From assembly GCA_946623485.1 (NCBI GenBank), contig CAMORF010000022.1:1-13699 (forward strand): a DNA stretch of 13,699 bases, read 5' to 3'. This document shows positions 1 to 12,750 of the stretch, one piece after another. The DNA comes from an uncultured Clostridia bacterium (GTDB lineage: Bacteria; Bacillota; Clostridia; Lachnospirales; Lachnospiraceae). A program made the position numbers and the translations under genes. Numbering within the stretch: the first letter of the stretch is position 1; every line of letters begins with the position of its first letter. The notes below the pieces were generated by a model. The model worked only from the letters and a program-made list of their open reading frames with translations. It searched no databases and was not told the origin of the DNA.

Positions 1-1
1 C

Positions 2-45
2 GCTGCCGGGCATACGATATCTGTTTTTGTTTTGCTTCCGGCAGC
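2..45. repeat. Inverted repeat downstream of the radical SAM gene
   Basis: The 8-nt arms GCTGCCGG (2-9) and CCGGCAGC (38-45) are exact inverted copies separated by 28 nt of T-rich sequence. They lie about 80 nt past the stop codon of the minus-strand gene at 125-1252. There is no clear U-run on the minus-strand exit side inside the window, so it is a weak terminator candidate. Confidence 0.3.
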
Positions 46-124
46 CGTCACTTGCAGTGGTGAGTTACGGAATGGTTTGCTTTGCTGCTTTTTGCCTCTG
101 TCGGCTGCATTTTCCTGTGGTGAA

Positions 125-1252
125 CTACGAATTATGGATGGCCTGCCGGACGCCTTCGCCGTTCCAGGACGGGATGAAGCTTTCTTTTGCGGTGCCGCCT
201 TCTTGTATGTATCCATATGTCACTCCAATCCCAATCGCATAATCGATCAGCCTTTCATATTCTCTGCGGGTTGTCCTGCGGTTAAGCAGCGGATGGCTCT
301 TCATCTGCTGCATCGGTGTATATTGGTTCATGATACTGAGGCCGATGGAATCCCCGTATTTGTCATGCAGATAAAAAATGATCTCTTTTGCCTCCTGCAC
401 ATGTCCTGGAAGGAGCAAATGCCGCACAATCACTCCCTTGCGGATCAGTGCTGTTACAGGATCGATGGACACGGATCCCGCCTGCCTCACCATCTCTGCG
501 ATTGCGGCCTTTGCTATCTCCGGATAGTCTTGCGCGTTGGAATAATCTCCTGCGGTCCTGGAAGACATATACTTAAAATCCGGGAGATACACATCTACCA
601 GACCATCCAGCATCCGCAAAGAGGAAACCTTTTCATAGCCACCGGAATTGTATATGACAGGTATGCTCAGGCCTTTGCTTTTTGCGATGGCCAGTGCTTT
701 GGCCGTCTGCGGGAGATAATGCGCTGCCGTCACGAGGTTGATGTTATTCGCACCTTCCTCGTTCTGAAGACGCAGGAAAATCTGAGCCAGTTCTTCAATC
801 GACACTTCTATTCCAGGTAGTTTTCTTGCGGATATGCCCGGAAGAATGGACATCTGCTTTTTGACTGCCTCCGGGCTGTCGGCGCACTTCTGCTCTGTGG
901 CCGCTTCCGTACCAACGGGGTGCTGCTCTGTGGCCGCTTCAAGGCCGGTGGCCGTCTGCTCTTTCACTGGCTCCGGGCTTTCGGTCAGCTCTTGTTTCGT
1001 TGCTCCCTTGGGGATGGTCAGGCCTGAAATCTCCACATTCTGACAGTATATGCATCCGAGGCTGCAGCCTGAGAAGAATACGGCACCGGATCCGGCACTT
1101 CCTGAAATACATGGTTCTTCCCAGAAATGAAGGGCTGCACGTGCCAGAATAACCTGGGCAGGAGCGCCGCATCTCCCACGGTTCCCTGCCGTCCGGTCAA
1201 CGCCGCACTCCCGCGGACAGATTCTGCAGTTTTTCATCAACTGTTCATCCAT
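125..1252 (-). CDS. Radical SAM protein of the PflA/PflX-like (COG1313) type
   Basis: The 375-residue protein has the radical SAM signature C-x3-C-x2-C at C63, C67 and C70 (CSLGCIYC), preceded by GAVFFSGC as in pyruvate formate-lyase activating enzyme homologues. An N-terminal cysteine set (C9, C12, C16, C28) matches the usual opening of COG1313 proteins, which bind a 4Fe-4S cluster and S-adenosylmethionine; their substrates are mostly unknown. NINLVTAAHYLPQ (170-182), YNSGGYE (201-207) and VDVYLPDFKY (219-228) follow in family order. Residues about 81-145 are an extra Glu/Ala/Thr-rich stretch with internal repeats, placed between the SAM cluster and the next conserved block, where relatives have only a few residues. 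ATG 1252 is used; its ribosome site is weak (GGAG about 15 nt upstream), and ATG 1237 is an alternative. No neighbouring glycyl-radical enzyme is seen, so the target is unknown. Confidence 0.85.
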   Translation of the reverse strand: MDEQLMKNCRICPRECGVDRTAGNRGRCGAPAQVILARAALHFWEEPCISGSAGSGAVFFSGCSLGCIYCQNVEISGLTIPKGATKQELTESPEPVKEQTATGLEAATEQHPVGTEAATEQKCADSPEAVKKQMSILPGISARKLPGIEVSIEELAQIFLRLQNEEGANNINLVTAAHYLPQTAKALAIAKSKGLSIPVIYNSGGYEKVSSLRMLDGLVDVYLPDFKYMSSRTAGDYSNAQDYPEIAKAAIAEMVRQAGSVSIDPVTALIRKGVIVRHLLLPGHVQEAKEIIFYLHDKYGDSIGLSIMNQYTPMQQMKSHPLLNRRTTRREYERLIDYAIGIGVTYGYIQEGGTAKESFIPSWNGEGVRQAIHNS

Positions 1253-1272
1253 GGCATCGAGTCCCGCTCCGG

Positions 1273-1363
1273 GTGAAACAGGGGACGGTTCTCCGTTTCA
1301 CACCCCTGATCCACACTCCTGTTCTACCTTCAGAGTGAAACGGAGAACCGTCCCCTGTTTCAT
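1273..1363. repeat. REPIN-like inverted pair of 29-nt palindromic units
   Basis: Unit 1 (1273-1301) begins GTGAAAC and ends GTTTCAC around a core reading AGGGGACGGTTCTCC. Unit 2 (1335-1363) is its reverse complement at 28 of 29 positions. The 33-nt spacer is 1302-1334. Each unit is therefore a small imperfect palindrome, and the two together form a longer one. An extra partial copy CCCTGTTTCAC follows at 1365-1375. This is the architecture of REPINs, elements moved in trans by RAYT (Y1-type) transposases. No RAYT gene is present here. The element ends only 20 nt before the radical SAM start codon, so it would be transcribed as a long hairpin in that leader. Confidence 0.7.
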
Positions 1364-1376
1364 TCCCTGTTTCACT

Positions 1377-1405
1377 AATAAAGGCGCTGCCGTTCAGCAG
1401 CGCCT
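1377..1405 (-). terminator. Rho-independent terminator within the radical SAM leader
   Basis: AGGCGCTGC (1382-1390) and GCAGCGCCT (1397-1405) form a 9-bp stem with a 6-nt loop. On the minus strand the stem is followed by TTTATTAG. It lies between a promoter (1453-1481) and the radical SAM start at 1252, so it either ends a small RNA or acts as an attenuator. Confidence 0.65.
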
Positions 1406-1446
1406 CTCAATCGTGTATCGATTCTCCCACCGCGGAGTTTCTATAC
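1378..1446 (-). ncRNA. Candidate small RNA A (or structured leader with attenuator)
   Basis: A well-spaced minus-strand promoter (1453-1481) predicts a start near 1446. The roughly 70-nt transcript would form three successive hairpins: CTCC/GGAG (1434-1437 with 1424-1427), AATCG/CGATT (1419-1423 with 1409-1413) and a 9-bp GC-rich terminator (1397-1405 with 1382-1390) followed by TTTATT. An alternative stem GTGTAT/ATACAC (1443-1448 with 1413-1418) would exclude the second hairpin. No open frame of note lies in it. It could be a free small RNA, or a leader controlling the radical SAM gene by attenuation. I do not recognise it as a known family. Confidence 0.45.
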
Positions 1447-1452
1447 ACTCAT

Positions 1453-1481
1453 AAAATAGCCCATTCCCTCTGAAATTGCAA
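1453..1481 (-). promoter_or_regulatory. Sigma-A type promoter for candidate RNA A / radical SAM gene
   Basis: On the minus strand, TTGCAA (1476-1481) is separated by exactly 17 nt from TATTTT (1453-1458). The next gene in this direction is the radical SAM gene, about 200 nt away, beyond a terminator hairpin. Confidence 0.55.
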
Positions 1482-1545
1482 TACCTTTTAAAAAATAAAT
1501 TCAGCAATCAATTCAGCATATGTTGATCTCCATCAGTTGATCACA

Positions 1546-1638
1546 TAAAAACCGCCGACATAAATGTCGGCGGGATGTCCGCTCCGTGGTGGGTTTTATG
1601 TACGGGTGGGTTAAAGCCATCAATGATCGGAACAGACG
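1546..1638 (-). ncRNA. Candidate small RNA B with own promoter and terminator
   Basis: A near-consensus promoter (TTGACG-17 nt-TAAAGT, 1644-1672) predicts a start near 1637. The 5' end then pairs with a downstream segment: GUCUGUUCCG (1628-1637) with CGGAGCGGAC (1577-1586), ten pairs including two G-U, closing a 41-nt loop. The loop carries two direct copies of AACCCACC in otherwise weakly structured sequence. A 9-bp terminator with UUUUU follows at once (1547-1573). Promoter, closing stem and terminator fit end to end in about 92 nt, without a credible reading frame. C-rich unpaired motifs are known from several Gram-positive regulatory RNAs that bind G-rich mRNA sites; that parallel is an inference. 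I do not recognise a named family. Confidence 0.55.
1547..1573 (-). terminator. Strong rho-independent terminator
   Basis: CCGCCGACA (1552-1560), loop TAAA and TGTCGGCGG (1565-1573) form a perfect 9-bp GC-rich stem followed on the minus strand by TTTTTATG (1551 downward). The opposite strand has no T-run, so it works for minus-strand transcription: candidate RNA B and any read-through from yfbR. Confidence 0.85.
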
Positions 1639-1643
1639 AAATT

Positions 1644-1672
1644 ACTTTAATCGATTATTGACCTTACGTCAA
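1644..1672 (-). promoter_or_regulatory. Near-consensus sigma-A promoter of candidate RNA B
   Basis: On the minus strand, TTGACG (1667-1672) and TAAAGT (1644-1649) are separated by 17 nt. It lies 137 nt or more past the yfbR stop and points at a roughly 92-nt unit ending in a strong terminator, which argues that this gap is separately transcribed. Confidence 0.65.
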
Positions 1673-1728
1673 CCTGAAAACCGAAAAAAAAGAGTATGTC
1701 ACAAAAAGTTTACATCTTCACGAACGCC

Positions 1729-1811
1729 TTTCACAAGCACTTCTCTCATGCACTTTTCTCATTCGCTTCTCTCATGCACTTCTCCTATGCATTTTTCTCA
1801 TGCGCTTTTCA
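1729..1811. repeat. Degenerate 13-14-nt tandem array overlapping the yfbR stop
   Basis: On the minus strand, about six units resembling AAGTGCATGAGAG follow one another from the yfbR stop codon (1809-1811) outward, with variants such as AAGCGAATGAGAA. The array contains no paired arms and no spacers. It is one of several different short arrays behind stop codons in this window. Confidence 0.7.
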
Positions 1812-2396
1812 CGGTCTGATTTCGTCCAGTGTTTTTTCGTAGGCGGGAATGAATTCTTTCAGGAAGATCTCGACTTCCTCCAGTTTCAGGTCGTGCAGTG
1901 CCTGGAGCGTGGACCGTTCCGCATGCTCGAACTCCCGGTTGCCGGCCTTGCGTTCCTCGATGCATTTGATATATGCGCTCAGTTTGTCCGCGCCTTTTAC
2001 AATTCTTTTTTCCTGGCTGTATTCGTCCCCGGGCTCCAGGACATTGGTAAACTGTGCCCGCAGATCCTGCGGAAGGAGGGAGAGCAGGCGCATGTTGGCG
2101 TCACGCTCCACATCCTTATAAGCGTTGCGGATCTGCCGGTTAAAATACTTCACCGGCGTGGGCATGTCACCCGTCAGGATCTCTGATCCGTCATGGTACA
2201 TGCCGATCACGGCCGCCCGGTCCGCATCCAGATGTTTCCCGAGACGTTCATTTCCGATCACACAAAGCGCATGGGAAAGCATCCCGACCTCCAGTGAGTG
2301 CTGGGCCAGGTTCTCGTCCGCAGAATTGCGCATCAATGCCCATCGGTCGATCCATTTCAGCCTTGCCATCATGGCAAAAAATCCATATGTTTCCAT
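1809..2396 (-). CDS. yfbR: 5'-deoxynucleotidase, YfbR family (HD domain)
   Basis: The 195-residue protein matches the E. coli YfbR pattern almost end to end. It has FFAMMARLKWIDRWALMRN (6-24), the HD metal set H33, H68, D69 and D137, and MYHDGSEILTGDMPTPVKYF (66-85). R18, W19, E72 and D77 occupy the positions that in E. coli YfbR give catalysis and selection for deoxy over ribo sugars. The expected reaction is removal of 5'-phosphate from dNMPs in the cytoplasm, using a divalent metal. It starts 9 nt past the ilvN stop with a TAAGGAAG ribosome site, so it is the last gene of the ilvB-ilvN operon. A metabolic link to branched-chain synthesis is not obvious. Identification by full-length motif agreement is strong. 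Confidence 0.93.
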   Translation of the reverse strand: METYGFFAMMARLKWIDRWALMRNSADENLAQHSLEVGMLSHALCVIGNERLGKHLDADRAAVIGMYHDGSEILTGDMPTPVKYFNRQIRNAYKDVERDANMRLLSLLPQDLRAQFTNVLEPGDEYSQEKRIVKGADKLSAYIKCIEERKAGNREFEHAERSTLQALHDLKLEEVEIFLKEFIPAYEKTLDEIRP

Positions 2397-2405
2397 CCGG
2401 CTTCC

Positions 2406-2879
2406 TTACCCCTTTGCCATGGATATCGTTCCGGTACGCTGCACCTCCAGGATTCCGAAGTTCCTCAACAGCTCCAGGAATTCCCCGACCACATCCGGCG
2501 TATTGTGGATCTCGATCATAAATGACTTTGCGCTGACGTGCATGACCTTTGCTCCCATGACGCTGCACAGTTCAATCAGGGAAGAACGGTTCTGCGCATT
2601 GTAGGATACCTTGACAAGCATCATCTCCAGCGACACGGATTTCGTCTCGTCCAGGCGGCGCACTTTGATGACATCCAGCTTCTTATTCAGGTGCTTCTCG
2701 ATCTGGTCGATTGTCCTCTGGTCCGCGGTGGACACAATCGTCATGCTTGATACATCATGTTTATCCGTCTCCCCCACAGCCAGGGAGTCAATATTAAAGC
2801 CACGCCTGGAGAACAGACCGGCAATCTGAGAAAGGACACCGTCTTTATTTTCCACAAGGACAGAAAAAATGCCTTTCAT
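2406..2879 (-). CDS. ilvN: Acetolactate synthase, small (regulatory) subunit
   Basis: The 157-residue protein has the standard small-subunit layout. An N-terminal ACT domain (about 1-75) carries FSVLVENKDGVLSQIAGLF and RRGFNIDSLAVGETD; a C-terminal domain begins near VSLEMMLVKV (82-91). The small subunit stimulates the catalytic subunit and gives it valine feedback sensitivity in the family. It starts 14 nt past the ilvB stop behind a good AAGGAGGG ribosome site, consistent with co-translation of the two subunits. The C-terminal half is compact but complete for the roughly 160-residue class. No truncation or frameshift is seen. Confidence 0.95.
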   Translation of the reverse strand: MKGIFSVLVENKDGVLSQIAGLFSRRGFNIDSLAVGETDKHDVSSMTIVSTADQRTIDQIEKHLNKKLDVIKVRRLDETKSVSLEMMLVKVSYNAQNRSSLIELCSVMGAKVMHVSAKSFMIEIHNTPDVVGEFLELLRNFGILEVQRTGTISMAKG

Positions 2880-2893
2880 GATGTCCCTCCTTC

Positions 2894-4516
2894 TTATTTG
2901 GTGTTATTTGCACTGTCAACATCACAGACCATGATCGCCGCGTTCGGGCAGGCAAGGAACCGGTCGAGCTCAGCCCCAAGGGTTTCATTCGAGTCTGCAT
3001 GGAAGTAATCCATGTCATATGCCTCAGCCAGCTTGTCGTAGTGGGGAAATGCATACAGCTGCACGCCGGAATAGTGCCCGTTGTAGACTTTCTCCTGATG
3101 CTCCCGGACCAGGCCCAGGAATTCATTGCGCAATACCAGGATCTTCACGGCAATTTTGTTCACCGCAATGGTGGCCAGTTCAAACATCGACATCTGGAAC
3201 GCGCCGTCCCCGCAGACCGCCACGACCTGTTTGGAGGGATCTGCCATCTTCGCACCGATTGCCGCAGGGATGGAATACCCCATCGTCCCCATGCCTCCGG
3301 TGGTCAGGAACCTTCCGTTCTTCATCACATAATTATCGGCAGACCACAACTGATTCTGCCCCACGTCTGCCACGTAGACGGCATCATCATCCATCTTCTC
3401 GGAAAGCGTCTGAACCAGCGTCATGGGGTTCACCAGGCGGTCACTGAAAACTCTGTGATCCACCGTCGTGTGCTTGAATTCCTCCAGCTCCTCCAGCCAT
3501 TCCTTCGTGTCGATGCGGATATCCGCTTCCAGAAGCTCGGTGAAGATATGCCGGATGTCTCCCACCAGCGGGATCGTCGGTCCGAGCATCTTTCCGATCT
3601 CCGCCGAATCGATGTCGATATGGATGACCGTCAGGCGTTTCTCCAGATTCTCCGGCTTCGGAACCGCCCGGTCGGCAACCCGCGCGCCGACGATCATAAG
3701 AAGGTCTGCGTTCGCGACTGCCTTGTTAGCGTAGGGCTTCCCGTTGTTGCCCAGCATCCCGAAGTATAGCGGGTGTGCCTTGGCGATGGTTCCGATCCCC
3801 ATCATCGTTGAGACCAGCGGGATCTGGTTTTTTTCGCAAAATGCACGGATCACGCTTTCCCCGCTGCCAAGGATGACGCCGCCGCCCGCACAGATGAGCG
3901 GTTTTTTTGCACGACGGATCGCGGCGATGACTTTGGCCATCTGCTGCCCGTTCCCGGTGATGCTGGGTTTGTAGCCCCGCATCCTTACCTCATCGGGATA
4001 GTGAAATGCTTTTGACAGCTCCGTCCTCTGCACGTCGCAGGGGATGTCAATCAGGACAGGCCCCATCCGTCCGGTGGACGCAACGTGGAACGCCTCCTTG
4101 AAAATGCGCGGGATGTCATTCACATTTTTAACCAGGTAGCTGTACTTGACAAAGGATTCTGTCGCGCCCCTCATGTCTGCTTCCTGGAAGACATCATGCC
4201 CCAGAAGGCTGCTGTCTACCTGGCCCGTGATGGCAATCAGCGGAATGCTGTCGGCATTGGCGGTTGCCAGCGCTGTGATCAGGTTCGTGGCTCCGGGGCC
4301 GGAGCTCGTGACACAGACTGCGGGTTTCCTTGTAATACGGGCATAGCCGGAGGCCGCATGCCCTGCGGCCTGTTCCTGGCGCACCAGCACATGCTCGATC
4401 TGCGGATTCTCATACAGCGCCTCGTAAAAAGGGGCAATCGCCACCCCCGGGATCCCGAAGATCCTCGTGACCCCTTCCGCCTTCAGGCATTCTACCATTG
4501 CCTGCGCACCATTCAT
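2894..4516 (-). CDS. ilvB: Acetolactate synthase, large (catalytic) subunit, divergent type
   Basis: The 540-residue thiamine diphosphate enzyme condenses pyruvate with pyruvate or 2-oxobutyrate, the first common step of valine, leucine and isoleucine synthesis. Seen features are the cofactor-activating Glu E48 in VRQEQAAGHAASGYAR, the PYR and central FAD-type domains, and the diphosphate-binding GDG (436-438) leading to N464. Three positions differ from most enzymes of the family: C160 where the DIPKDV motif has Lys, NNG (257-259) where MHG is usual, and H473 (VREHQ) where the herbicide and 2-oxobutyrate determining Trp normally sits. The ATG at 4516 is chosen because AGGAGGG lies about 9 nt upstream and the protein then starts MNGAQAMVECLK as expected; the frame runs on to a TTG at 4588 without support. 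ilvN follows directly, supporting the biosynthetic assignment. Confidence 0.92.
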   Translation of the reverse strand: MNGAQAMVECLKAEGVTRIFGIPGVAIAPFYEALYENPQIEHVLVRQEQAAGHAASGYARITRKPAVCVTSSGPGATNLITALATANADSIPLIAITGQVDSSLLGHDVFQEADMRGATESFVKYSYLVKNVNDIPRIFKEAFHVASTGRMGPVLIDIPCDVQRTELSKAFHYPDEVRMRGYKPSITGNGQQMAKVIAAIRRAKKPLICAGGGVILGSGESVIRAFCEKNQIPLVSTMMGIGTIAKAHPLYFGMLGNNGKPYANKAVANADLLMIVGARVADRAVPKPENLEKRLTVIHIDIDSAEIGKMLGPTIPLVGDIRHIFTELLEADIRIDTKEWLEELEEFKHTTVDHRVFSDRLVNPMTLVQTLSEKMDDDAVYVADVGQNQLWSADNYVMKNGRFLTTGGMGTMGYSIPAAIGAKMADPSKQVVAVCGDGAFQMSMFELATIAVNKIAVKILVLRNEFLGLVREHQEKVYNGHYSGVQLYAFPHYDKLAEAYDMDYFHADSNETLGAELDRFLACPNAAIMVCDVDSANNTK

Positions 4517-4538
4517 ATTCCGGCCCTCCTGCCTGTAA

Positions 4539-4560
4539 TGCCGGCGTAAAAACGCCGGCA
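4539..4560 (-). promoter_or_regulatory. GC-rich hairpin in the ilvB leader
   Basis: TGCCGGCG (4539-4546) and CGCCGGCA (4553-4560) form a perfect 8-bp stem with a 6-nt loop, reading TTTTTA on the minus strand. It ends 22 nt before the ilvB ATG, just upstream of the ribosome site. The minus-strand sequence after it is TTACAGG, a poor U-run, so it is an unlikely terminator by itself. It may shape ribosome access or mRNA stability. I see no T-box or leader peptide around it. Confidence 0.45.
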
Positions 4561-4577
4561 CATCGTCTCTTTTTATC

Positions 4578-4755
4578 TCATCTATCAACCAATCAGCCGA
4601 TGCACCAGCCAGCCGATCAGCTTATCAGCCAATCAGAGCCAGCCAATTTGCCAACCAGTCAGCCAGTCAACCAGTCAACCGATCAGCCAGACAGCCGGTC
4701 AACCGATCAGCCAGACAGCCAGTCAACCGATCAGCCAGACAGCCGGTCAACCGAT
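4578..4755. repeat. 24-nt tandem array running from glgA's last codons into the gap
   Basis: Three 24-nt units (4684-4707, 4708-4731, 4732-4755) are identical except for one G/A change. Beyond them, towards ilvB, shorter decayed pieces of the same motif (minus strand GGCTGAT and GGTTGA) continue to about 4578. The third unit covers the last codons and the TGA stop (4747-4749) of glgA. The repeats fill most of the 230-nt glgA-ilvB gap. There are no unique spacers, so it is not a CRISPR array. Confidence 0.85.
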
Positions 4756-6195
4756 CAGCCAATCATACATCTCCTGATATTTTCCAGCGGATACCTTCCA
4801 GGAGAAGTCTGCCTGCATGGCGCGGTCCACCATCTTGTTCCATTCACGCTTGCGGTCGTAGAAGATCTGCTCCGCGTAGCGGACGGTGTGCATCATCTCA
4901 TGCGCATTGTAATTGGTGAAGGTGAACCCTGTCCCGGTGTTTTCATATTCGTTGTAGGGCATGACCGTGTCCTTCAGGCCGCCGGTTTCGCGGACAATCG
5001 GAATCGTGCCGTAGCGCAGGCTCATCAGCTGGGAGAGTCCGCACGGTTCAAAGAGCGACGGCATCAGGAAAGCGTCGCAGGAGCCGTAGATCCTGTGGGA
5101 CAGTTCGTTCGAATAGTAAATGTTCGCCGAGAATTTCTTCGGGTACTTTCCTGCAAGGTAGCGGAACAGGTTCTCATACTGTTCTTCACCGGTCCCGAGC
5201 ACTACCACCTGGATCGAGTCGATATTGAGCATCTCTTCCATGACACATGCGATCAGGTCAAAGCCCTTCTGGTCGGTCAGGCGGGACACGATGCCGATCA
5301 GGAAACTCTTGGGGTCCACATCCAGCCCGAGCTGTTCCTGCAGCTGTGCCTTGTTCCTTGGCTTTTCCTTGCGCCAGTTCTTCAGGTTATAGGGTGCAAC
5401 CAGGAACTTGTCCGTCTCCGGGTTAAACTCCTCATAATCGATCCCGTTCAGAATTCCGCGCAGGTCATGGGTCCTTGCGTTCAGGATTCCCTCAAGGTTC
5501 TCACCGTAGAACGGAGTCTTAATCTCCTCCGCGTAGGTCGGTGAGACCGTGGTGACCGCGTCGGCATAGACAATGCCGCCCTTCAGGAGGTTGGCATCCT
5601 TGTATGCCTCCAGCTTATCCGGGGTGAAATAGTAGTCGGAAAGCCCGGTGATCGCGGCGACAACCTTCGGATCCCATTTTCCCTGGAACCTGAGGTTATG
5701 GATCGTCATGACCGTCTTGATGCCGCGATAATATTCATTTTCCTGGAAACTGCCCTTCAGGTAGACCGGGATGAGGCCCGTCTGCCAGTCGTGGCAATGG
5801 ATCAGGTCCGGCCTGAAGCCGATGGTGGGAAGGGCGCTGAGCACTGCTTTGGAGAAAAATGCAAAGCGCTTGATCTCGAACAGGGCGTCGTTGGTATAGA
5901 CCTGTTCCGTCGCAAAGTAATCGTTGTTATCGATGAAGTAGTACTGTACGCCTTCCACTTCCGCATGGAAAAGGCCTACATAGGTGGATTTGTAATCGAA
6001 ATCCATGTAGAAGGATGTCATGTATTCCATCAGATCCTTCATGTTCTGATACATGCAGTTGTAGCGCGGCATGATCACACGCACATCATAGTATTCCTTG
6101 TCGATGTCGCGCGGCAGCGAACCGACGACATCAGCCAGACCGCCCGTTTTTATGAACGGAACTCCCTCTGATGCTGCAAATAGTATGTTTTTCAT
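4747..6195 (-). CDS. glgA: Glycogen synthase (ADP-glucose type, GT5)
   Basis: The 482-residue protein transfers glucose from ADP-glucose to the growing alpha-1,4-glucan. It has the N-terminal KTGGLADVVGSLP (16-28; K16 is the ADP-glucose Lys), HCHDWQTGLIP (133-143), TIHN (164-167, His166), SRLTDQKG (304-311, with R305 and K310), GTGEEQYE (334-341) and the acid E383 in LFEPCGLSQLM. Length and motif order match GT5 GlgA. ATG 6195 has GGAGG a few nucleotides upstream; the frame stays open upstream to 6873 but that part is antisense to the chromate transporter and unlike any GlgA. No other glg gene is in the window. Its last codons coincide with a 24-nt tandem repeat, so repeat growth may have set the present C-terminus (Trp-Leu-Ile-Gly). 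Confidence 0.97.
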   Translation of the reverse strand: MKNILFAASEGVPFIKTGGLADVVGSLPRDIDKEYYDVRVIMPRYNCMYQNMKDLMEYMTSFYMDFDYKSTYVGLFHAEVEGVQYYFIDNNDYFATEQVYTNDALFEIKRFAFFSKAVLSALPTIGFRPDLIHCHDWQTGLIPVYLKGSFQENEYYRGIKTVMTIHNLRFQGKWDPKVVAAITGLSDYYFTPDKLEAYKDANLLKGGIVYADAVTTVSPTYAEEIKTPFYGENLEGILNARTHDLRGILNGIDYEEFNPETDKFLVAPYNLKNWRKEKPRNKAQLQEQLGLDVDPKSFLIGIVSRLTDQKGFDLIACVMEEMLNIDSIQVVVLGTGEEQYENLFRYLAGKYPKKFSANIYYSNELSHRIYGSCDAFLMPSLFEPCGLSQLMSLRYGTIPIVRETGGLKDTVMPYNEYENTGTGFTFTNYNAHEMMHTVRYAEQIFYDRKREWNKMVDRAMQADFSWKVSAGKYQEMYDWLIG

Positions 6196-6259
6196 AGCGA
6201 TCCTCCACTGTTTATGTTTTGCCGGCCTGCGCCGCAGATACCGGGAAATTGATATAGAC

Positions 6260-6288
6260 ATGATAACACAAGCTGTTGATACGGAAAA
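6260..6288 (-). promoter_or_regulatory. Candidate extended -10 promoter of glgA
   Basis: On the minus strand, TGTTATCAT (6260-6268) is an extended -10 element. The segment 17 nt upstream (TTTTCC, 6283-6288) is a poor -35, as is tolerated with an extended -10. It would give a leader of about 60 nt before the ATG at 6195. Confidence 0.35.
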
Positions 6289-6430
6289 GACCGTTTCTTC
6301 ATCGACCTGACATACGCTGTCTTGCATCTCCTCGCCATTCGCGAGCCGGCGCGTGACAATCCAGGAGCAGTCATTGCTGAATGACAATGCAGGTACAGAC
6401 TTTTCTGAATGACGATGTGGAAGGCAGCCA

Positions 6431-6459
6431 TTGAAATAATTCTCCGGATGAATTACTGT
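6431..6459 (+). promoter_or_regulatory. Weak candidate promoter of the chromate transporter operon
   Basis: TTGAAA (6431-6436) is followed after 17 nt by TACTGT (6454-6459), which matches the -10 consensus only in part. It is the best-spaced pair I find ahead of the gene, with a leader of about 110 nt. Confidence 0.25.
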
Positions 6460-6531
6460 AGAGCGGAAATACTGATCGGTTCGTCTCCGCCGCCCGCAAT
6501 CAATCGAGCCTGCCGCTTTGGATGACAGGGA

Positions 6532-6551
6532 TTTCCGGCGGACGCCGGAAA
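6532..6551 (+). promoter_or_regulatory. Hairpin just upstream of the chr ribosome site
   Basis: TTTCCGGC (6532-6539) and GCCGGAAA (6544-6551) form an 8-bp stem with a 4-nt loop. It ends 10 nt before the AGGAGG at 6562-6567. It could be an operator or a translational control element; there is no T-run, so it is not a terminator. Confidence 0.4.
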
Positions 6552-6576
6552 ATGCGAATACAGGAGGAATTGCTTT

Positions 6577-7110
6577 ATGAAATATCTGGATCTGTTCCTG
6601 ACCTTTGCCCGGATCGGCGTGCTTACTTTTGGGGGCGGATATGCTATGCTTCCGATCATCCAGCGGGAGGTTGTGGAGAAAAAAGGATGGGTCTCCGATG
6701 CCGAAGTCATGGATTATTACGCGATCGGCCAGTGTACCCCCGGGGTGATCGCGGTCAACACTGCGACTTTTACCGGCAGGAAAATCCTGGGGAATCTTGG
6801 CGGGATTGTGGCGACGGCAGGCGTAGTATTTCCATCCGTCGTCATTATCACGGTGATCGCCGCGCTGATCCACGGTTTTGCCAATTTCAGGCCGGTCCAG
6901 GATGCGCTTGCCGGCATCCGCGTCTGTGTCTGCGTCCTGATCTTTAATTCGGTTCTGAAGATGTGGAAGAAATCTGTCATCGACAAGGTTACGCTTGTTC
7001 TGTACCTGGCAATCCTGATTGCTTCGGTGTTTTTTGATGCTTCCCCTGTTCTGATGGTCGTGATTGCGGCAGCGGCAGGCTTGATCGTGAAGGGGAGGGC
7101 TAAGGCATGA
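6577..7110 (+). CDS. chrA: Chromate transporter, short-chain CHR protein, N-terminal-half type
   Basis: The 177-residue membrane protein is one half of a split CHR transporter. It carries the family motifs FGGGYAMLP (18-26) and QCTPGVIAVNTATF (52-65), with about five hydrophobic segments (for example 76-98, 112-126 and 137-153). CHR proteins act in the cytoplasmic membrane; some export chromate, but the true substrate of many anaerobe members is unknown. AGGAGG lies 9 nt upstream of the ATG. Its stop overlaps the start of the next gene by 4 nt, the usual arrangement for tandem short-chain CHR pairs in Firmicutes, which work together. Nothing nearby (reductase or metal regulator) confirms chromate as the substrate. 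Confidence 0.9.
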   Translation: MKYLDLFLTFARIGVLTFGGGYAMLPIIQREVVEKKGWVSDAEVMDYYAIGQCTPGVIAVNTATFTGRKILGNLGGIVATAGVVFPSVVIITVIAALIHGFANFRPVQDALAGIRVCVCVLIFNSVLKMWKKSVIDKVTLVLYLAILIASVFFDASPVLMVVIAAAAGLIVKGRAKA

Positions 7111-7715
7111 TGTTGTATCTTCAGCTGTTCTGGGAATTCTTTAAAACCGGGCTTTTTGCCATCGGCGGAGGGATGGCGACGGTTCCGTTCCTTCAGGATA
7201 TCTCTGCAAAAACGAAATGGTTCTCCGCTTCTGACCTGGCGGATATGATCGCTGTGTCAGAGAGCACGCCCGGACCTCTGGGCATCAACATGGCAACCTA
7301 TGTCGGATATACGACTGTACATAGTCACCATGGCCCGGCTGCCGCTGTCCTTGGAAGCATCGTCGCTACGGTCGGCCTGATCACTCCTTCCGTAATCATC
7401 ATCCTGATCATCGCGAAATTCCTTGAGAAGTTCCGGGATAACCGGTATGTAAACGCAGCCATGTACGGTCTTCGCGCGGCTTCTGTGGCATTGATCAGCG
7501 CCGCCGGTCTGTCCATCGTCCTGATCTCGGTTTTCCAGATCAGCAACATCCGGCAGTTCAGGGCTGCCGTCATCGATTTCCGCTGTATCCTCCTGGCTGC
7601 CTTGATCCTGGTTCTCACCAGATGGGTGCCAAAGATCAAGAAGCTGCACCCGGTCGTATTCATTGCGCTGTCCGCCGTAATCGGAATTGTGTTTCATATG
7701 TCCGTCCCGCTGTAA
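7107..7715 (+). CDS. chrA: Chromate transporter, short-chain CHR protein, C-terminal-half partner
   Basis: The 202-residue protein is the second half of the pair. It repeats the family motifs as IGGGMATVPFL (19-29) and STPGPLGINMATYVGY (53-68), followed by hydrophobic segments at about 79-104, 123-144 and 159-172 and a hydrophobic end (183-198). GGGGAGGG lies about 8 nt upstream. Translation is coupled to the preceding gene through an ATGA overlap at 7107-7110; a second ATG at 7110 is also possible. Together the two genes match the CHR fold of full-length transporters. A terminator hairpin follows at 7764-7796. Confidence 0.9.
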   Translation: MMLYLQLFWEFFKTGLFAIGGGMATVPFLQDISAKTKWFSASDLADMIAVSESTPGPLGINMATYVGYTTVHSHHGPAAAVLGSIVATVGLITPSVIIILIIAKFLEKFRDNRYVNAAMYGLRAASVALISAAGLSIVLISVFQISNIRQFRAAVIDFRCILLAALILVLTRWVPKIKKLHPVVFIALSAVIGIVFHMSVPL

Positions 7716-7763
7716 GGAGCCGGATGATCCCCCATATCTTTACAAGGCAACGCCACTGACAGA

Positions 7764-7796
7764 AAGGGAGGCAGTCCGAATCGGGCTGCCTCCCTT
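7764..7796. terminator. Bidirectional terminator between chr operon and DivIVA-like gene
   Basis: AAGGGAGGCAG (7764-7774) and CTGCCTCCCTT (7786-7796) form an 11-bp stem extended inward by CCG/CGG. The plus strand leaves into TTCCTGTATTTC and the minus strand into CCCTTTCTG, both modest U-runs. It lies 49 nt past the chr stop and about 150 nt past the convergent gene's stop at 7944, so it can serve both. Confidence 0.75.
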
Positions 7797-7943
7797 CCTG
7801 TATTTCACAATTCCTTGTTTTTATTACAATTCCTTACGCTACCGTACCTGCCCGTACAGCGAGCCGTATGCACGGCAATGCGGCCGTATGTCTCTGTGCG
7901 CTTCTGCGGACCTCTATGAGCCCTGCGACCGTTTCCTTCCGGA

Positions 7944-9056
7944 TTACTCTGAGCGGACCGATGCTTTCTCGGCGATCTCGCCTGCAGCCTGGGTGAACTT
8001 TGACACTGCGTCTTCGGAAGCCATTCTGTTTCCGAAGACCCGCTTCCACTGATCAATCGCGGATTCTGAAGCTTCCTCGGCTTCCTCTTCGAGATCCTTC
8101 ACCATCCCGGCGGCCTTCTCAATGGCTTCATCCGATGTCTCAGAGATCTCCTCGCCGATTCCGGATACCGCTTCCTGGGCCTGCTCCGCTGAAGCGGCTG
8201 CTTCCTCCGCAATATCTGACTGGGCTGCTTCCTTCACCGCCTCACCGGCAATGCCAAACGCTGCAGCCTCGTCGGCAGCTTCGCTTACCGTCTCTTCATT
8301 CTCATGGGCAATTCCAAACGCAGGTGCCTCAGCCTCTTCCGCTTTCACGGCTTCATCCGCTTCGTCATCGGCGTTATCAAACCTTCTGAGCAATGCATCA
8401 ACATCCTCTTCTTCTGCTTCATCGGAGGCCTGCGCAGCATCACTGCTCATTCCGTCCGCGGCTTCTTCCGGAGTATACTTTGCCTTCTCATCCTCAATGT
8501 CCTGCTGTGTCTCATCCAGAACCTGGGCCTTCTCATTCAGGTGCTCTGACGCAACTTCAAGCAGCTCACTGATCTGTCCAAGCACATCCTGCAGCTTAGA
8601 ATCGATCTTCCGGACCTTGTCCTTCTGCTCTTCCAGGATCTGCAGATGCTCTTCGTCACGCTCCTTCGCCTTACGGTCCGCTTTATTCCTCAGTTCCTCC
8701 GCGTATTCTTTCGCGTCAAGAAGCGTATCCGCAATCGTATCATTGTTGCGCCGCAGGAGATCCCTTTCCTGTGTCAGGCTTTCAATGCGCGCATTCAGCC
8801 TTTGCGTATCTTCTTCATACCGCGCGTTCAGCCTCTGTGTCTCTTCTTCATAACGCTCGTTCAGTTTCTGTGTGTCTTCTTCATATTTTGTCCGGAGCGC
8901 TTCGATCTGTCCTCTCAAAGTTTCCTGGACATCCAGGCCCTCTTTCTGTGCATCCTGGACCTTCTGGTTGTACTCGCTTTCCAGATTTGATACATAATTA
9001 GATACCGCCAGCTTACTGTAGCCGAACAGGCTTGATTTCAGATTTGACAGATCCAT
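7944..9056 (-). CDS. DivIVA-like coiled-coil protein with long acidic C-terminal region
   Basis: The 370-residue protein opens with SSLFGYSKLAVSNYVSNLE (8-26), which resembles the lipid-binding N-terminus of DivIVA/GpsB proteins (FGY..K..V..Y). A continuous coiled coil of about 150-170 residues follows. In it, residues 57-89 are three 11-residue units of the type RYEEDTQRLNA, encoded by 33-nt tandem repeats (8790-8888). From about 195 the chain turns Ala/Glu/Asp-rich and low in complexity, with AFGIA seen twice, and ends in a less acidic segment (QWKRVFGNRMASEDAVSKF, 336-354). There is no signal peptide or membrane segment. A role in cell division or polar scaffolding is inferred from the N-terminus only. 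The ATG at 9056 has AAAGGAG about 7 nt upstream. It is monocistronic behind its own promoter. Confidence 0.75.
   Translation of the reverse strand: MDLSNLKSSLFGYSKLAVSNYVSNLESEYNQKVQDAQKEGLDVQETLRGQIEALRTKYEEDTQKLNERYEEETQRLNARYEEDTQRLNARIESLTQERDLLRRNNDTIADTLLDAKEYAEELRNKADRKAKERDEEHLQILEEQKDKVRKIDSKLQDVLGQISELLEVASEHLNEKAQVLDETQQDIEDEKAKYTPEEAADGMSSDAAQASDEAEEEDVDALLRRFDNADDEADEAVKAEEAEAPAFGIAHENEETVSEAADEAAAFGIAGEAVKEAAQSDIAEEAAASAEQAQEAVSGIGEEISETSDEAIEKAAGMVKDLEEEAEEASESAIDQWKRVFGNRMASEDAVSKFTQAAGEIAEKASVRSE
8790..8888 (-). repeat. Three 33-nt coding repeats (11-residue coiled-coil units)
   Basis: The units 8856-8888, 8823-8855 and 8790-8822 encode KYEEDTQKLNE, RYEEETQRLNA and RYEEDTQRLNA. 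The next segment (RIESLTQERDL) is a decayed fourth. Eleven-residue periodicity suits a hendecad coiled coil, so unit number can change without breaking frame or helix register. Confidence 0.85.
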
Positions 9057-9176
9057 CGCAAACTCCTTTCCTTACAACATCACAGGCACTTCACTTTGAG
9101 CACGGGGCAGATGTCCGCCGCAACGATCCTTTCCCTGCAATCCTGCACATCAAGCCCAGCTCAACCCTTTCCATAA

Positions 9177-9185
9177 AGTATAACA
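9177..9185 (-). promoter_or_regulatory. Extended -10 promoter of the DivIVA-like gene
   Basis: On the minus strand, TGTTATACT (9177-9185) is a near-perfect extended -10. The -35 region is poor (CAGAAT at 17 nt spacing), which is common with extended -10 promoters. It predicts a start near 9170. Confidence 0.5.
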
Positions 9186-9235
9186 CATTATCTGTGAGAA
9201 TTCTGTACTTTTGCCCGGATTCTCTCCGTTTCTTT

Positions 9236-9330
9236 TTCGATTTTTCTGTTTCTTAATTCCGTTCTTATTCTATCCAGTTCTTATCCGGTTTTTCCGGTTC
9301 ATTCCCGTTCTTTTTTCATTTTCCCGGATC
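9236..9330. repeat. Degenerate AAGAACNGGAAT-type repeats behind the rubrerythrin gene
   Basis: On the minus strand the motif AAGAAC followed by GG and A/T recurs about five times with irregular spacing of 12-20 nt (for example AAGAACGGGAAT, AAGAACTGGATA and AAGAACGGAATT). The block is almost free of pyrimidines on that strand. It is the least regular of the post-stop arrays in the window. Confidence 0.45.
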
Positions 9331-9358
9331 GTGATCTATCTGCCGCAGGCCTTGCTTC

Positions 9359-9907
9359 TCAGTAATTCTCCGCATGAACTTCAAAATAGCTCTGTGGGTG
9401 ATCACATACCGGACAGACTTCCGGCGCCTTGGTGCCGACAATGATATGTCCGCAGTTCCGGCATTCCCAGACCTTCACTTCGCTCTTTTCAAACACTTCT
9501 TTCATCTCCACGTTGTGGAGAAGCGCACGGTAGCGCTCTTCATGGTGCTTTTCGATCGCGGCGACTGCGCGGAACTTCTCCGCCAGGTCATCGAAGCCTT
9601 CCTCCTGTGCGGTTTTGGCAAATCCCTCATACATATCGGTCCATTCGAAATTCTCACCTGCTGCCGCTGCCGCCAGGTTCTCGGCTGTGGTTTTGATTCC
9701 GCCAAGCTCCTTGAACCACATCTTGGCATGCTCTTTCTCATTGTCCGCCGTTTTCAGGAACAGCGCAGCGATCTGCTCATACCCTTCCTTCTTCGCCTTT
9801 GACGCAAAGTAGGTGTACTTGTTGCGTGCCTGTGATTCTCCGGCGAAGGCAGCCTCCAGGTTCTTCAGGGTCTGGGTTCCTTCGTAACGATTCTTGTTTT
9901 CGCTCAT
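9359..9907 (-). CDS. rbr: Rubrerythrin
   Basis: The 182-residue protein is a typical rubrerythrin. A four-helix diiron domain carries E24, E57, H60, E88, E119 and H122, and D91 at the seventh ligand position, which is Glu (E97) in the Desulfovibrio protein. A C-terminal rubredoxin domain has CRNCG (149-153) and CPVC (165-168) for the Fe(SCys)4 centre. The enzyme reduces hydrogen peroxide to water using electrons passed through the rubredoxin site, and protects anaerobes in the cytoplasm. The start at 9907 ([10 protein letters not shown]) is set by AAGGAG 11 nt upstream; the frame extends to 9970 without homology. The gene is alone behind a strong promoter with a built-in inverted repeat, which suggests stress control. 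Confidence 0.96.
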
Positions 9908-9999
9908 TCTTCCGAATCTCCTTCTGTATGTTTGATTCTGTACATCTGGGACACCCTCAGGGCAACACACGAAGCAGCCGCGCCGGAGGGATTTAGGTT

Positions 10000-10029
10000 A
10001 TTTTACAAAGATTTCTCTTTGTTCGTCAA
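10000..10029 (-). promoter_or_regulatory. Rubrerythrin promoter with an operator-like palindrome in the spacer
   Basis: On the minus strand, TTGACG (10024-10029), an 18-nt spacer and TAAAAT (10000-10005) form a strong promoter. Between them lies the perfect inverted repeat ACAAAGA-GAAA-TCTTTGT (10005-10022), placed where a bound repressor would block RNA polymerase. It does not match the PerR box (TTATAAT-N-ATTATAA), so a different redox regulator is inferred. The leader to the ATG at 9907 is about 85 nt. Confidence 0.65.
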
Positions 10030-10110
10030 TGGAAACGGGAGCAAAATCTCCTAATGTGTAAACATGTTGCATAATCCCTGCCTTCCCTGCAGAAATATTG
10101 CTGAAAATTC

Positions 10111-10139
10111 TTGCTGAATTCTTAGCAGTTCGTTATAGC
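10111..10139 (+). promoter_or_regulatory. Weak candidate promoter of the SGNH-like gene
   Basis: TTGCTG (10111-10116), a 17-nt spacer and TATAGC (10134-10139) are the best-spaced pair found. TATGAT at 10154-10159 is an alternative -10 without a good partner. Either would leave a leader of about 240-260 nt that contains the hairpin and repeats below. Confidence 0.25.
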
Positions 10140-10193
10140 ATCCTGAATCAGGATATGATATATTTTACTTAATTCCTGAAATTCCCAATATCT

Positions 10194-10235
10194 GATTCCG
10201 ATGTGGTTTCTTTTCACAGATGCCACATTGGAATC
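10194..10235 (+). promoter_or_regulatory. Long hairpin in the leader of the SGNH-like gene
   Basis: GATTCCGATGTGG (10194-10206) pairs with CCACATTGGAATC (10223-10235) over 13 positions with one G-U, around a 16-nt loop. No T-run follows, so it is not a simple terminator. It may be an operator or a leader RNA structure; it lies about 170 nt before the start codon. Confidence 0.45.
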
Positions 10236-10267
10236 TTCAGTGAGAATCTTCATGGAGTCGGTGATTC

Positions 10268-10327
10268 ATTTCCGGATCCATTCCAGGATTCCATTCACGA
10301 TTTATTTCCGAATCCATTCCAGGATTC
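10268..10327. repeat. 24-nt direct repeat with 36-nt period
   Basis: The segments 10268-10291 and 10304-10327 are identical at 23 of 24 positions, each containing ATCCATTCCAGGATTC. A third, weaker fragment (CATTTCAGGATT) follows near 10339-10350. The ATCC...GGAT inside each copy is a short palindrome. The array lies in the untranslated leader of the next gene. Confidence 0.7.
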
Positions 10328-10405
10328 ATGTTGGGATACATTTCAGGATTTTTTCAGCTTTTATTCTTTGCGTTATTGTTCACGTCACGGAGGGGAGGGA
10401 TGATC

Positions 10406-11659
10406 ATGAAAACAAGAGTATCCGTTGACTGGAAATCACATGTTTTAGCTGTACTCATTTTATCTGTGCTGATGGCGGTTGTATTCCGTTTTTCATTCCC
10501 GTTCAGAGCGTCTGCATCTGAGTCGGAGAAGCCTCCGGTTCAGGTTGTAAACCCGACGCCGACACCAACCCCGGCTCCGAAGCCGACTCCCGCGAAGCCG
10601 ATTAAGAAGACGGTGGTAAAGAGCCCGTTTTCCCTGCTCCAGTTTGATACCAGGCAGCTTTCGGTCAAAAATCCGGATGTGTCAGTAAAGTGGAGCTCCT
10701 CCAACCAGAAGGTTTGCACCGTTACAGACGGAGGTTTTGTCCAGGCTGTCGGCGGCGGTACCTGCACAATCTCGGCAACCAAGACGAACAGCGCGAAGAA
10801 TTCCATTATCACATATTCCTGGAATGTAACGGTTACGCCCCTGCAGCTCAACACGACAAAGCTGACGCTGATCAGGATGCGCAAGGGTGCGCAGCTGAGC
10901 CTGAATAACAGCAACGCAACCGATTCGGCTGTGTGGTCCTCTTCAAACAATAACATCGCATCTGTCAGCGGAAGCGGGTTTGTGACGCCCCACGCAACCG
11001 GAACTGCCGTCATCAGCGCGAAATGGAACAATGCAACCCGTTCCTGTACCGTGCAGGTGAAGAACGCGACACCGACTACGCTTACAAGGTTCCGCGATCC
11101 AAGATACCTTTCAAACCGTGGAAAAGTCGTTTTGGCCGGATCATCGCTCCTGGATCATTGGGAAGATCCGTATACGCCGTTTGGTTCCGTAGCTGTGATC
11201 AACAATTCTGTTCCGGACTCAACCTTCCGGAACTGGAATAACTGGTACAAGAAACTCATTGTTGCTTATCAGCCCAAAGCACTTGTCCTTTGCCTTGGCA
11301 CGGACGATATCGGAGATGGTCCGGACATGTCCGCGGAGCGGGCTGCTGACAAGATGCAGAAGCTGATTGAAAAGATTCATAAAAAGTCTAAAAAGACGAA
11401 GATCTTCTATCTTTCCCTGCCTTGCTATCCAAAGAACTCGGCGGCCTGGGAAACAACGAGGGTTTATAATCGTCTGATGCATGATTTCTGTGATGAAAAG
11501 AAATACATGACCTATCTGCCGCTGACCTTGAAGCTGACGGACGAAGATGAGATCCCGGACGAAACCTATTACAAAGGACATCAGACATATCTTTCAAAGG
11601 CTGGCTATGCGGTTGTAGAAAAAGTGGTTGTGAAGAAAGTGAGAAAAGCCGTCAGATAA
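10406..11659 (+). CDS. Exported Big_2-like / SGNH-hydrolase-like protein
   Basis: The 417-residue protein has an N-terminal signal or anchor segment (about 13-33), a Pro/Thr linker (50-65), two bacterial Ig-like Big_2-type domains (about 70-145 and 146-220, each with VKWSSSN- or AVWSSSN-type cores) and an SGNH-like domain (about 238-417). In the last, LAGSSLLDHW (243-252) stands at block I with S247 as the nucleophile position, CLGTDD (296-301) at block III and GHQTYLSKAGY (391-401) at block V with H392. Block II Gly appears replaced (VPDST, 269-273), block III Asn is Asp300, and the Asp three residues before the His is Tyr389. It acts outside the membrane; esterase activity is doubtful. ATG 10406 is best placed behind GGAGGG; ATG 10400 and 10328 are in frame. 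A bidirectional terminator follows. Confidence 0.82.
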   Translation: MKTRVSVDWKSHVLAVLILSVLMAVVFRFSFPFRASASESEKPPVQVVNPTPTPTPAPKPTPAKPIKKTVVKSPFSLLQFDTRQLSVKNPDVSVKWSSSNQKVCTVTDGGFVQAVGGGTCTISATKTNSAKNSIITYSWNVTVTPLQLNTTKLTLIRMRKGAQLSLNNSNATDSAVWSSSNNNIASVSGSGFVTPHATGTAVISAKWNNATRSCTVQVKNATPTTLTRFRDPRYLSNRGKVVLAGSSLLDHWEDPYTPFGSVAVINNSVPDSTFRNWNNWYKKLIVAYQPKALVLCLGTDDIGDGPDMSAERAADKMQKLIEKIHKKSKKTKIFYLSLPCYPKNSAAWETTRVYNRLMHDFCDEKKYMTYLPLTLKLTDEDEIPDETYYKGHQTYLSKAGYAVVEKVVVKKVRKAVR

Positions 11660-11661
11660 GG

Positions 11662-11770
11662 AGCCGCTCAGCCGCTCAGAAACAGCTGCTCAATAATAGC
11701 TGCTCAGAAAATAGTTGCTCAGAAACAACTGTTCAGAAATAGCTGCTCAGAAAATAGTTGCTCAGAAAAG
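11662..11770. repeat. 15-nt tandem array between the SGNH-like stop and its terminator
   Basis: About six units close to AGTTGCTCAGAAAAT (15 nt, one unit shorter) fill the gap after the stop codon at 11657-11659. The last unit merges into the outer left arm of the terminator (CAGAAAAG, 11763-11770), so the array looks like copies of that arm. Confidence 0.8.
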
Positions 11771-11809
11771 AAGCCCCTGCAGTGCAGTGCTGCAGGGGCT
11801 TCTTTTCTG
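11763..11809. terminator. Strong bidirectional rho-independent terminator
   Basis: Perfect 20-nt arms (11763-11782 and 11790-11809) enclose a 7-nt loop. The core is AAGCCCCTGCAG/CTGCAGGGGCTT, and the outer arms supply an A-tract on one side and TTCTTTTCT on the other, so it can end transcription in both directions. It sits between the convergent SGNH-like and YdcF-like genes. Confidence 0.92.
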
Positions 11810-11859
11810 ATGTGAACTTTTTCGAATAATACGGTTCCAAAATCAATCACTGATTGCGG

Positions 11860-12606
11860 TCAGAACCGCCCCCGGAGCTTTCCATACAGCAGCGCGACGG
11901 CTTCCCGGACTACATAATGAACCTCCATCAGGGAGTCTCCTTCTGCGGCGATCCCATATACCTCTTCGTAGCCTGCGTTTTTGGCAATCTTCAGCGCCCT
12001 GCACAGATGAAAGTCGTTGGTGATAATCGCGCAGGGCTGCTTCGCGCATCCGTACAGCCGGTTGCTGAATTGAAGATTCTCCTGGGTCGTTGTAGACTTG
12101 TCCTCTATCAGGAGCTGTCCTTCCCCGATCCCATGCGCTGTCAGGTAATTGCGCATACATATCGCCTCGGAGATCTCCTCCCCGGGTCCCTGACCGCCTG
12201 ACAGAATCAAGGTCAGCTTCTGGTTCCTGCTGTCATTCTTCGCAGCTTTGGCCGCTGCCTCGAGGCGCTTGAGCAGTGCCCGGGACGGCTTGGTTCCCCT
12301 GACCTGCGCGCCCAGAACGATGGCTGCAGGGACATTGTCGGGTGCCGTGGTCTTCATGCCGCCGATCACAATTATGCTGAGGACGCCCAACACAGCCAGC
12401 CCGATCCCCAGGCACACAAGCAGGATCCTGGATGCCCAGAGCATTGCGCTGTGCTCCGGATGTCTCCTGAGAAAGAATACAAGCAAAAATGCGCCTCCCA
12501 ACGCCAGCCAGAACCAACCGAAATCAAAGGCCGGTCCTGCATAAACTGCAAGAATGACATAATACAGGATGCAGCCTGTTCCGAGAACGATGCATAAAGC
12601 TGACAT
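11860..12606 (-). CDS. YdcF/SanA-like DUF218 membrane protein
   Basis: The 248-residue protein has three N-terminal hydrophobic segments (about 3-23, 30-46 and 60-82) followed by a DUF218 domain. Family motifs in order are AAIVLGAQVRG (94-104), ILSGGQGPGEEISEA (134-148), EDKSTTTQENLQFS (168-181), ITNDFHLCRALKIAK (195-209) and YVVREAVALLYGKL (231-244). DUF218 proteins are membrane-bound and linked to envelope biogenesis (SanA, ElyC); their reaction is unsettled. ATG 12606 is chosen because AGAGGAAG lies upstream and the protein then starts at its first membrane helix. The frame continues to a TTG at 12714 through a 33-nt repeat encoding KRIKTKTGIKQ, without a ribosome site, which I treat as non-coding. 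It lies behind the 12751 gene on the same strand and may be co-transcribed with it. Confidence 0.88.
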   Translation of the reverse strand: MSALCIVLGTGCILYYVILAVYAGPAFDFGWFWLALGGAFLLVFFLRRHPEHSAMLWASRILLVCLGIGLAVLGVLSIIVIGGMKTTAPDNVPAAIVLGAQVRGTKPSRALLKRLEAAAKAAKNDSRNQKLTLILSGGQGPGEEISEAICMRNYLTAHGIGEGQLLIEDKSTTTQENLQFSNRLYGCAKQPCAIITNDFHLCRALKIAKNAGYEEVYGIAAEGDSLMEVHYVVREAVALLYGKLRGRF

Positions 12607-12619
12607 AAATGTTCTTCCT

Positions 12620-12712
12620 CTGTTTGTTTTGTTCCGCTTCTGTTTTATACCTGTTTTTGTTTTGATCCGCTTCTGTTTTATACCTGTTTTTGTTTTGATC
12701 CGCTTCCGTTCC
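12620..12712. repeat. 33-nt tandem repeat between the surface protein and YdcF-like gene
   Basis: Units 12635-12667 and 12668-12700 are identical over 33 nt; a third begins at 12701 and a decayed part lies at 12620-12634. The unit is T-rich on the plus strand and contains CTGTTTTTGTTTTG. Its length is a multiple of three, which keeps an artificial frame open upstream of the YdcF-like start. Confidence 0.9.
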
Positions 12713-12750
12713 AATATATCACGGATCGGATATTTCAGGAAGAAATGAAA

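Follow-up and report, generated by a model that had tools for sequence, protein, structure and literature searches.

In a 13,699-nucleotide (nt) stretch of DNA from an uncultured, gut-type Clostridia bacterium of the Lachnospiraceae (contig CAMORF010000022.1 of assembly GCA_946623485.1, positions 1 to 13,699 of the forward strand; referred to here as the window), the gap between a YfbR-type 5′-deoxynucleotidase gene and a radical-SAM-like gene carries, on the minus strand and in this order, two short RNA units, which we call B and A, and a 28-base-pair (bp) inverted repeat. The two units almost certainly represent two real RNA families, to date known from the genus of the window only. Judging from sequence, we regard it as an evenly balanced proposition that B is a C-rich, trans-acting small RNA (sRNA) and that A is a leader RNA ended by a terminator, with a G-rich loop that serves as the target of B, its sponge, or both.

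Two RNA families within one genus

For comparison, we used a set of 19 genomes of the genus, including the window's own, which is 73% complete and split into 390 contigs (the window is contig C22). DNA searches of this set identified B in 12 genomes and A in 10, and when the loci were read, G001 and G011 were also seen to carry an A close to B, bringing the genomes with both units to 12 (referred to as carriers). Covariance models yielded strong matches in the same 12 genomes (101.6 to 116.9 bits for B, 60.6 to 92.7 bits for A), scores that serve to separate carriers from the rest, given that the models were built from these genomes. All other matches lay near noise, at 24 to 32 bits, except for one in G017, where a diverged A (28.7 bits, tip CUCCGUGGUGGGAG) ends ∼130 nt before a radical-SAM-like gene. 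The tally over the 19 genomes is both units in 12, B alone in none, A alone in one (G017), and neither in six (G002, G003, G004, G006, G007, and G010, which are 77 to 98% complete). Strand and B-A order are identical in all carriers, and the cores are near-invariant, with drift in the flanks, outer stem, and terminators. The conservation check on related genomes that the original prediction had put forward was passed, with units, promoters, terminators, and the complementary segment recurring in 12 of the 19 genomes.

Diverged copies of B were sought in the seven genus genomes lacking it by a model search that scored 150 candidates per genome, and none was found. A search allowing three mismatches in 10 genomes gave 119 sites; 30 of these were inspected, including all 2-mismatch sites and 21 of the 79 sites in the seven B-less genomes, and none had a second motif and stem. 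An exact scan of genome contigs for the B core retrieved 11 contigs, from uncultured Lachnospiraceae, Clostridia, or Clostridiales bacteria. Run with stricter filters on a sample of 397 genomes of the family, model R1 gave two matches, both in the same genus as the window. The pattern of the A tip occurred in 10 genomes of a comparable 397-genome set, two of them from the window's genus; in the other eight, the sites apparently lie within genes and lack a terminator as judged by eye, two of them in a transporter ATP-binding motif. A phage origin was rejected, as the exact cores had no match in viral contigs.

In Rfam, nothing in the window reached the gathering score: 12 weak matches all fell below threshold, so that membership in a known RNA family was rejected as well. 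One of the weak matches, to STnc430 (positions 1493 to 1584, 29.9 bits versus a gathering score of 47), is on the plus strand, opposite to the units, and its paired part is the terminator hairpin of B. Matches to microRNA families over ∼1270 to 1367 correspond to the inverted repeat and to neither A nor B. In a tree of the radical-SAM gene from 15 genomes (partial columns, midpoint root), the carriers do not form a single clade, which is compatible with more than one joint loss; this inference is weak because G005, G008, and G009 carry the gene at another place.

Architecture of the two units

The original prediction of two minus-strand units, each complete with promoter, stem, and terminator, was borne out in full at the positions given in Table 1, where unit coordinates and RNA ends are those predicted from the window's sequence. 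The folds of both units were better than all 200 of their dinucleotide shuffles (z scores of −4.7 and −7.2).

Table 1. Features of the B-A locus and its neighboring genes in the window
Feature	Position	Strand	Evidence and occurrence
Unit B, ∼91-nt RNA: closing stem, large loop with two CCCACC, then terminator	1547..1637	-	12 of 19 genus genomes
B promoter, TTGACG-17-TAAAGT	1644..1672	-	TTGACG/T-17-TANNNT found by script in 12/12 carriers
B closing stem, 10 pairs, GUCUGUUCCG with CGGAGCGGAC	1628-1637/1577-1586	-	Fold
First CCCACC(CG) motif, B loop	1603..1610	-	Unchanged in 12/12 carriers
B segment CCCACCACGGAG, complementary to A	1582..1593	-	CCCACCRCGGAG in 12/12 carriers
B terminator hairpin	1552..1573, T-run to 1547	-	Stem and T-run
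Unit A, ∼72-nt RNA: hairpin with tip CUCC-GCGGUG-GGAG, then terminator	1377..1448	-	12 of 19 genomes and a diverged 13th
A promoter, TTGCAA-17-TATTTT	1453..1481	-	Upstream alignment, 12 genomes; 8/12 to consensus
A hairpin	1413-1448	-	Fold
A segment CUCCGCGGUGGG, complementary to B	1426..1437	-	Constant in 12/12 carriers; one C to U in the 13th
A terminator hairpin	1382..1405	-	Stem; terminator scan detects inner part only
Box upstream of B, window ATGTAAACTTTTTGTG, ∼78-63 nt upstream of B start	1700..1715	-	Similar box aligns in 12/12 carriers
YfbR-type 5′-deoxynucleotidase, upstream neighbor	1809..2396	-	NCBIfam PRK03826, 245.5 bits versus cutoff of 122
Radical-SAM-like gene, downstream; A in its 5′ region	125..1252	-	Pfam Radical_SAM, 21.5 bits, below cutoff of 29.5

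The loop of B between the stem arms, GAUGGCUUUAACCCACCCGUACAUAAA(A)CCCACC, is nearly constant across the 12 carriers. Both CCCACC copies are invariant, one-base length differences are confined to A-runs (4 of the 12 lack a single A at one or the other of two sites), and G005 has one substitution. The closing stem shows one-sided changes only, at 4 of its 10 pairs, and two-sided changes in B (4 of 28 pairs) all fall within the terminator. A promoter scan of positions 1250 to 1820 returned one promoter-like site, that of B, versus 0.9 in shuffles, so this match alone is of little weight; the A promoter was below the threshold of the scan. When the alignment was read, TTGC-17-TATNTT was seen upstream of A in 10 of the 12 carriers (in four of these, the site scored highest by script is a different one), and the remaining two have TTGATT-17-CATTTT. 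The box upstream of B could be the site of a regulator (transcription factor).

In A, the invariant block consists of the segment complementary to B plus AGA, and the outer stem and terminator vary. The strands of the tip stem, CUCC and GGAG, are unchanged among the 12 carriers, a constancy that exceeds structural need and points to a sequence contact. Two-sided changes affect 5 of 21 pairs (2 hairpin and 3 terminator pairs), counts that depend on the alignment because the outer stem adopts another pairing register in G011 and G001 (the fold was seen for G011). As a side observation, GCGGTGGGAG, part of the A tip, occurs at 77 sites in 13 genomes (2 to 13 each, A included) versus 29 in the reversed control (0 to 5 each), with no excess over the control in G011 and G014.

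The order of elements in A, namely promoter, hairpin, intrinsic terminator, and then a start codon, would fit a leader-derived RNA made by early termination. Among the 13 genomes with A, the following gene is radical-SAM-like in nine and rlmD in three (an assignment based on two family members; in G009, rlmD is preceded by a short frame that matches nothing in Pfam), and in G005 the contig ends. The terminator arm of A lies 22, 37, 47, 55, 66, 77, 101, 130, 132, 133, and 136 nt from the next start codon in the 11 genomes measured, with start codons chosen by us and G005 (contig end) and G009 left out. The four genomes with 22 to 55 nt would offer scant space for a further promoter.

Complementarity of A and B and its possible meanings

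The complementarity of positions 1582 to 1593 in B with 1426 to 1437 in A, put at 11 of 12 in the original prediction, was confirmed in the window; over the carriers, it amounts to 11 of 12 in 10 genomes and 12 of 12 in two (G011 and G001). When A was dinucleotide-shuffled 2000 times, an 11-of-12 match arose in 9 cases (0.45%, whole transcripts); between cores (0.02 to 0.12%), it arose in 120 random hairpin tips and in 20 permutations of the A core, each out of 100,000. These chance figures of 0.02 to 0.45% are post hoc, since the complementary pair was originally picked by eye. Folding of four genomes predicts that opening CCACC/CCCACC in B costs 0.1 to 1.5 kcal/mol, as for exposed C-rich motifs. 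The GGUGGG of A is invariant, with its last GG inside the tip stem, and opening these 6 nt costs 7.0 to 8.8 kcal/mol (four genomes). Given the complementarity, the joint presence of the units, and their constancy, we judge a functional link between A and B to have an even or slightly better chance, as far as sequence can tell.

If A and B are linked as sRNA and leader, the 10-bp stem of B would display a loop bearing two CCCACC copies. A would be transcribed from its own promoter and stopped by its terminator ahead of the next gene, radical-SAM-like or rlmD, and would by this position also be the leader of that gene. The GGUGGG at the tip of A and the adjoining CUCCG match the CCCACC and CGGAG of B, so a first contact might form through GGUGGG:CCCACC and the duplex might then spread into both stems, leaving A as the target of B, its sponge, or both. 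One of the two CCCACC copies of B is not part of the long match, and B therefore probably has additional partners. A more elaborate version would make the locus a self-contained module, in which the C-rich sRNA is accompanied by an adjacent leader on the same strand that is both target and sponge, loop pairing is followed by stem displacement (CUCCG of A replacing UUCCG of B), the tandem layout sets the ratio of the two RNAs, and the downstream gene reports the outcome. We consider this version unlikely.

Several observations weigh against a pairing of A with B. The same C-A mismatch is present in 10 of the 12 carriers and no compensatory change was seen; with both cores nearly constant, there is also no covariation that would prove the pairing. 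In silico duplex prediction, proposed at the outset, favored the pair when duplex energy alone was counted with the terminators removed (0 to 10 of 200 shuffles were as good in the 12 genomes) and showed no gain once self-structure was counted. Cofolding with self-structure, without terminators or pseudoknots, gave 22 to 144 of 200 shuffles as good across the 12 genomes, with 144 in the window's own, and accessibility-weighted helices in four genomes reached −1.8 to −3.1 kcal/mol and were equaled by 34 to 49 of 100 shuffles. This control is harsh, as a shuffled A loses its stable hairpin and cofolding omits loop-loop contacts; even so, the net thermodynamics of the model lend no support to A-B pairing. 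In G017, A is present and B was not found in the genome, the contig beginning ∼230 nt upstream of A. The joint presence of the units, which are mostly neighbors, may in part reflect joint deletion.

A limited target search in four genomes likewise found no mRNA target that would back the role of B. GGTGGGT before ATG occurred at 44 sites versus 37 in the reversed control, which is no enrichment, and the 44 include the complement of B itself in the four genomes. Among the 42 sites that were read, one pair lies in related proteins, but within their frames, and one site, L196 (G011:C52), resembles a real gene start in a single genome. At L196, a 229-amino-acid frame directly follows AAGGAGGTGGGTGGTATGA, a ribosome site containing GGTGGG, in this one of the four genomes searched. 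The sponging raised in the original prediction is plausible and at the same time unproven, with net helices no better than those of shuffles in the four genomes examined.

The same weak net pairing energy, equal to that of shuffles, would be expected if A and B were real but independent regulatory RNAs with separate targets, matching by chance or through a shared third partner. This explanation, which we hold to be possible but clearly less probable than a leader-sRNA pair, also agrees with the lack of covariation, although the cores are too constant to discriminate, and with the first CCCACC of B, which requires another partner in any case. It sits less well with the location of the match in the invariant blocks of both units, at the chance levels given above, and with the finding that no B without A was detected among the 19 genomes. 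A narrower role for A, as a purely cis-acting attenuator whose hairpin binds a protein or metabolite ahead of the terminator, with B as an unrelated sRNA, would explain the invariant hairpin tip, the attenuator-like succession of hairpin, terminator, and gene, and the position of the terminator 22 to 136 nt ahead of the next gene in all 11 measured genomes. However, that gene varies (radical-SAM-like, rlmD, or a contig end in 9, 3, and 1 of the 13 genomes), the distance is 101 to 136 nt in 5 of the 11, inspection by eye found no antiterminator competing with the terminator stem, and the A-B match would be left unexplained. We therefore rate it as improbable.

The distance between the units bears on a further proposal of the original prediction, that B and A in one read-through transcript form a long-range switch before the radical-SAM-like gene. 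A core distance of 118 to 255 nt in 10 of the 12 carriers would be in keeping with such a switch, but the cores are 6196 nt apart in G012 and 9408 nt apart in G018, with several genes between them (those identified encode a family-5 solute-binding protein in G012 and a DUF4432 protein in G018), and in the 12 carriers the DNA between the cores includes a B terminator and an A promoter. This separation of 6.2 and 9.4 kilobases (kb) in 2 of 12 genomes favors transcripts of their own for the two units over a joint switch, and we rejected the switch as extremely improbable because the short-range linkage is not kept. Neighboring units that share a short complementary segment could also form a type I toxin-antitoxin pair, in which one RNA codes for a small toxic peptide and the other silences it. 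No frame in A is common to the 12 carriers, and the MALTHPYI frame of B is interrupted behind MAL in G016 and shifted in G005, G012, and G018 (4 of 12 in all), extends into the terminator, and lacks a clear ribosome site. For want of a conserved small peptide frame, this candidate was dismissed with hardly any probability left to it.

Surroundings of the locus and known antagonist RNAs

Between the terminator of A and the radical-SAM-like gene lies the inverted repeat TGAAACAGGGGACGGTTCTCCGTTTCAC, a perfect 28 bp with arms at 1274-1301 and 1335-1362. Searching the genome of the window with positions 1268 to 1376 gave 105 match rows, a number that counts each place on both strands and includes the window, so that the repeat belongs to a dispersed family; a literature search on GGGGACGGTTCT found nothing related. 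The window's radical-SAM-like protein contains, at residues ∼80-143 (positions ∼824-1015), an E-, A-, T-, P-, and Q-rich insert; 16 relatives have a match, which is interrupted there in 14 of them. In G005, the contig (L088 1-250) ends after A in what looks by eye like a transposon end, and the start of the radical-SAM-like gene is close to the end of a different contig (L119 1729-1850) with letters that, again by eye, are similar. A mobile element may thus separate A from the radical-SAM-like gene in this genome.

The claim in the original prediction that no such pair has been described was too strong, as RoxS/RosA, ChiX/ChiZ, and CJnc190/CJnc180 are similar in logic. By analogy, the A/B pair appears close to all three; its sequence was compared with Rfam alone. 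According to a 2021 paper, no RNA sponge had been confirmed in a Gram-positive bacterium before RosA (PMC8216469). In RoxS/RosA of Bacillus subtilis, C-rich and G-rich regions face each other in the partner RNAs as in B and A, with the difference that this sRNA-sRNA pairing is proven and that of A and B is predicted from sequence (PMC8216469). RosA is ∼229 nt long and has three G-rich regions, two of them predicted to be single stranded (PMC8216469), unlike A, which has ∼72 nt and one G-rich region that is partly in the hairpin stem. In ChiX/chiP/ChiZ of Escherichia coli, a terminated 5′ leader (ChiZ, ∼90 nt) bears the sRNA site and can sponge ChiX, a layout proposed here for A (PMC7815308). 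A differs in having an intrinsic terminator, and B and A usually stand side by side, as seen from their core distances. These two systems provide precedents for each step proposed for A and B. CJnc190/CJnc180 of Campylobacter jejuni likewise combines an sRNA directed to a G-rich site with an antagonist from the same locus (PMC8687705). CJnc180 is antisense to CJnc190 (PMC8687705), whereas A and B follow each other on the same strand, and their match is thus not imposed by overlap. In the literature on sponge RNAs and Lachnospiraceae small RNAs, such a pair was not found in titles and abstract openings, a search whose coverage excluded preprints and most subscription papers.

The conserved tandem of an sRNA and its putative sponge adds two RNA families that are not in Rfam and have clear predicted edges, and it indicates that such RNA pairs can be spotted in raw intergenic sequence. 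Given a named site for the pairing and naturally occurring variants of the sequence, the sponge idea is directly testable in vitro. Should the self-contained module be real, it would be known from one lineage of uncultured Lachnospiraceae only.
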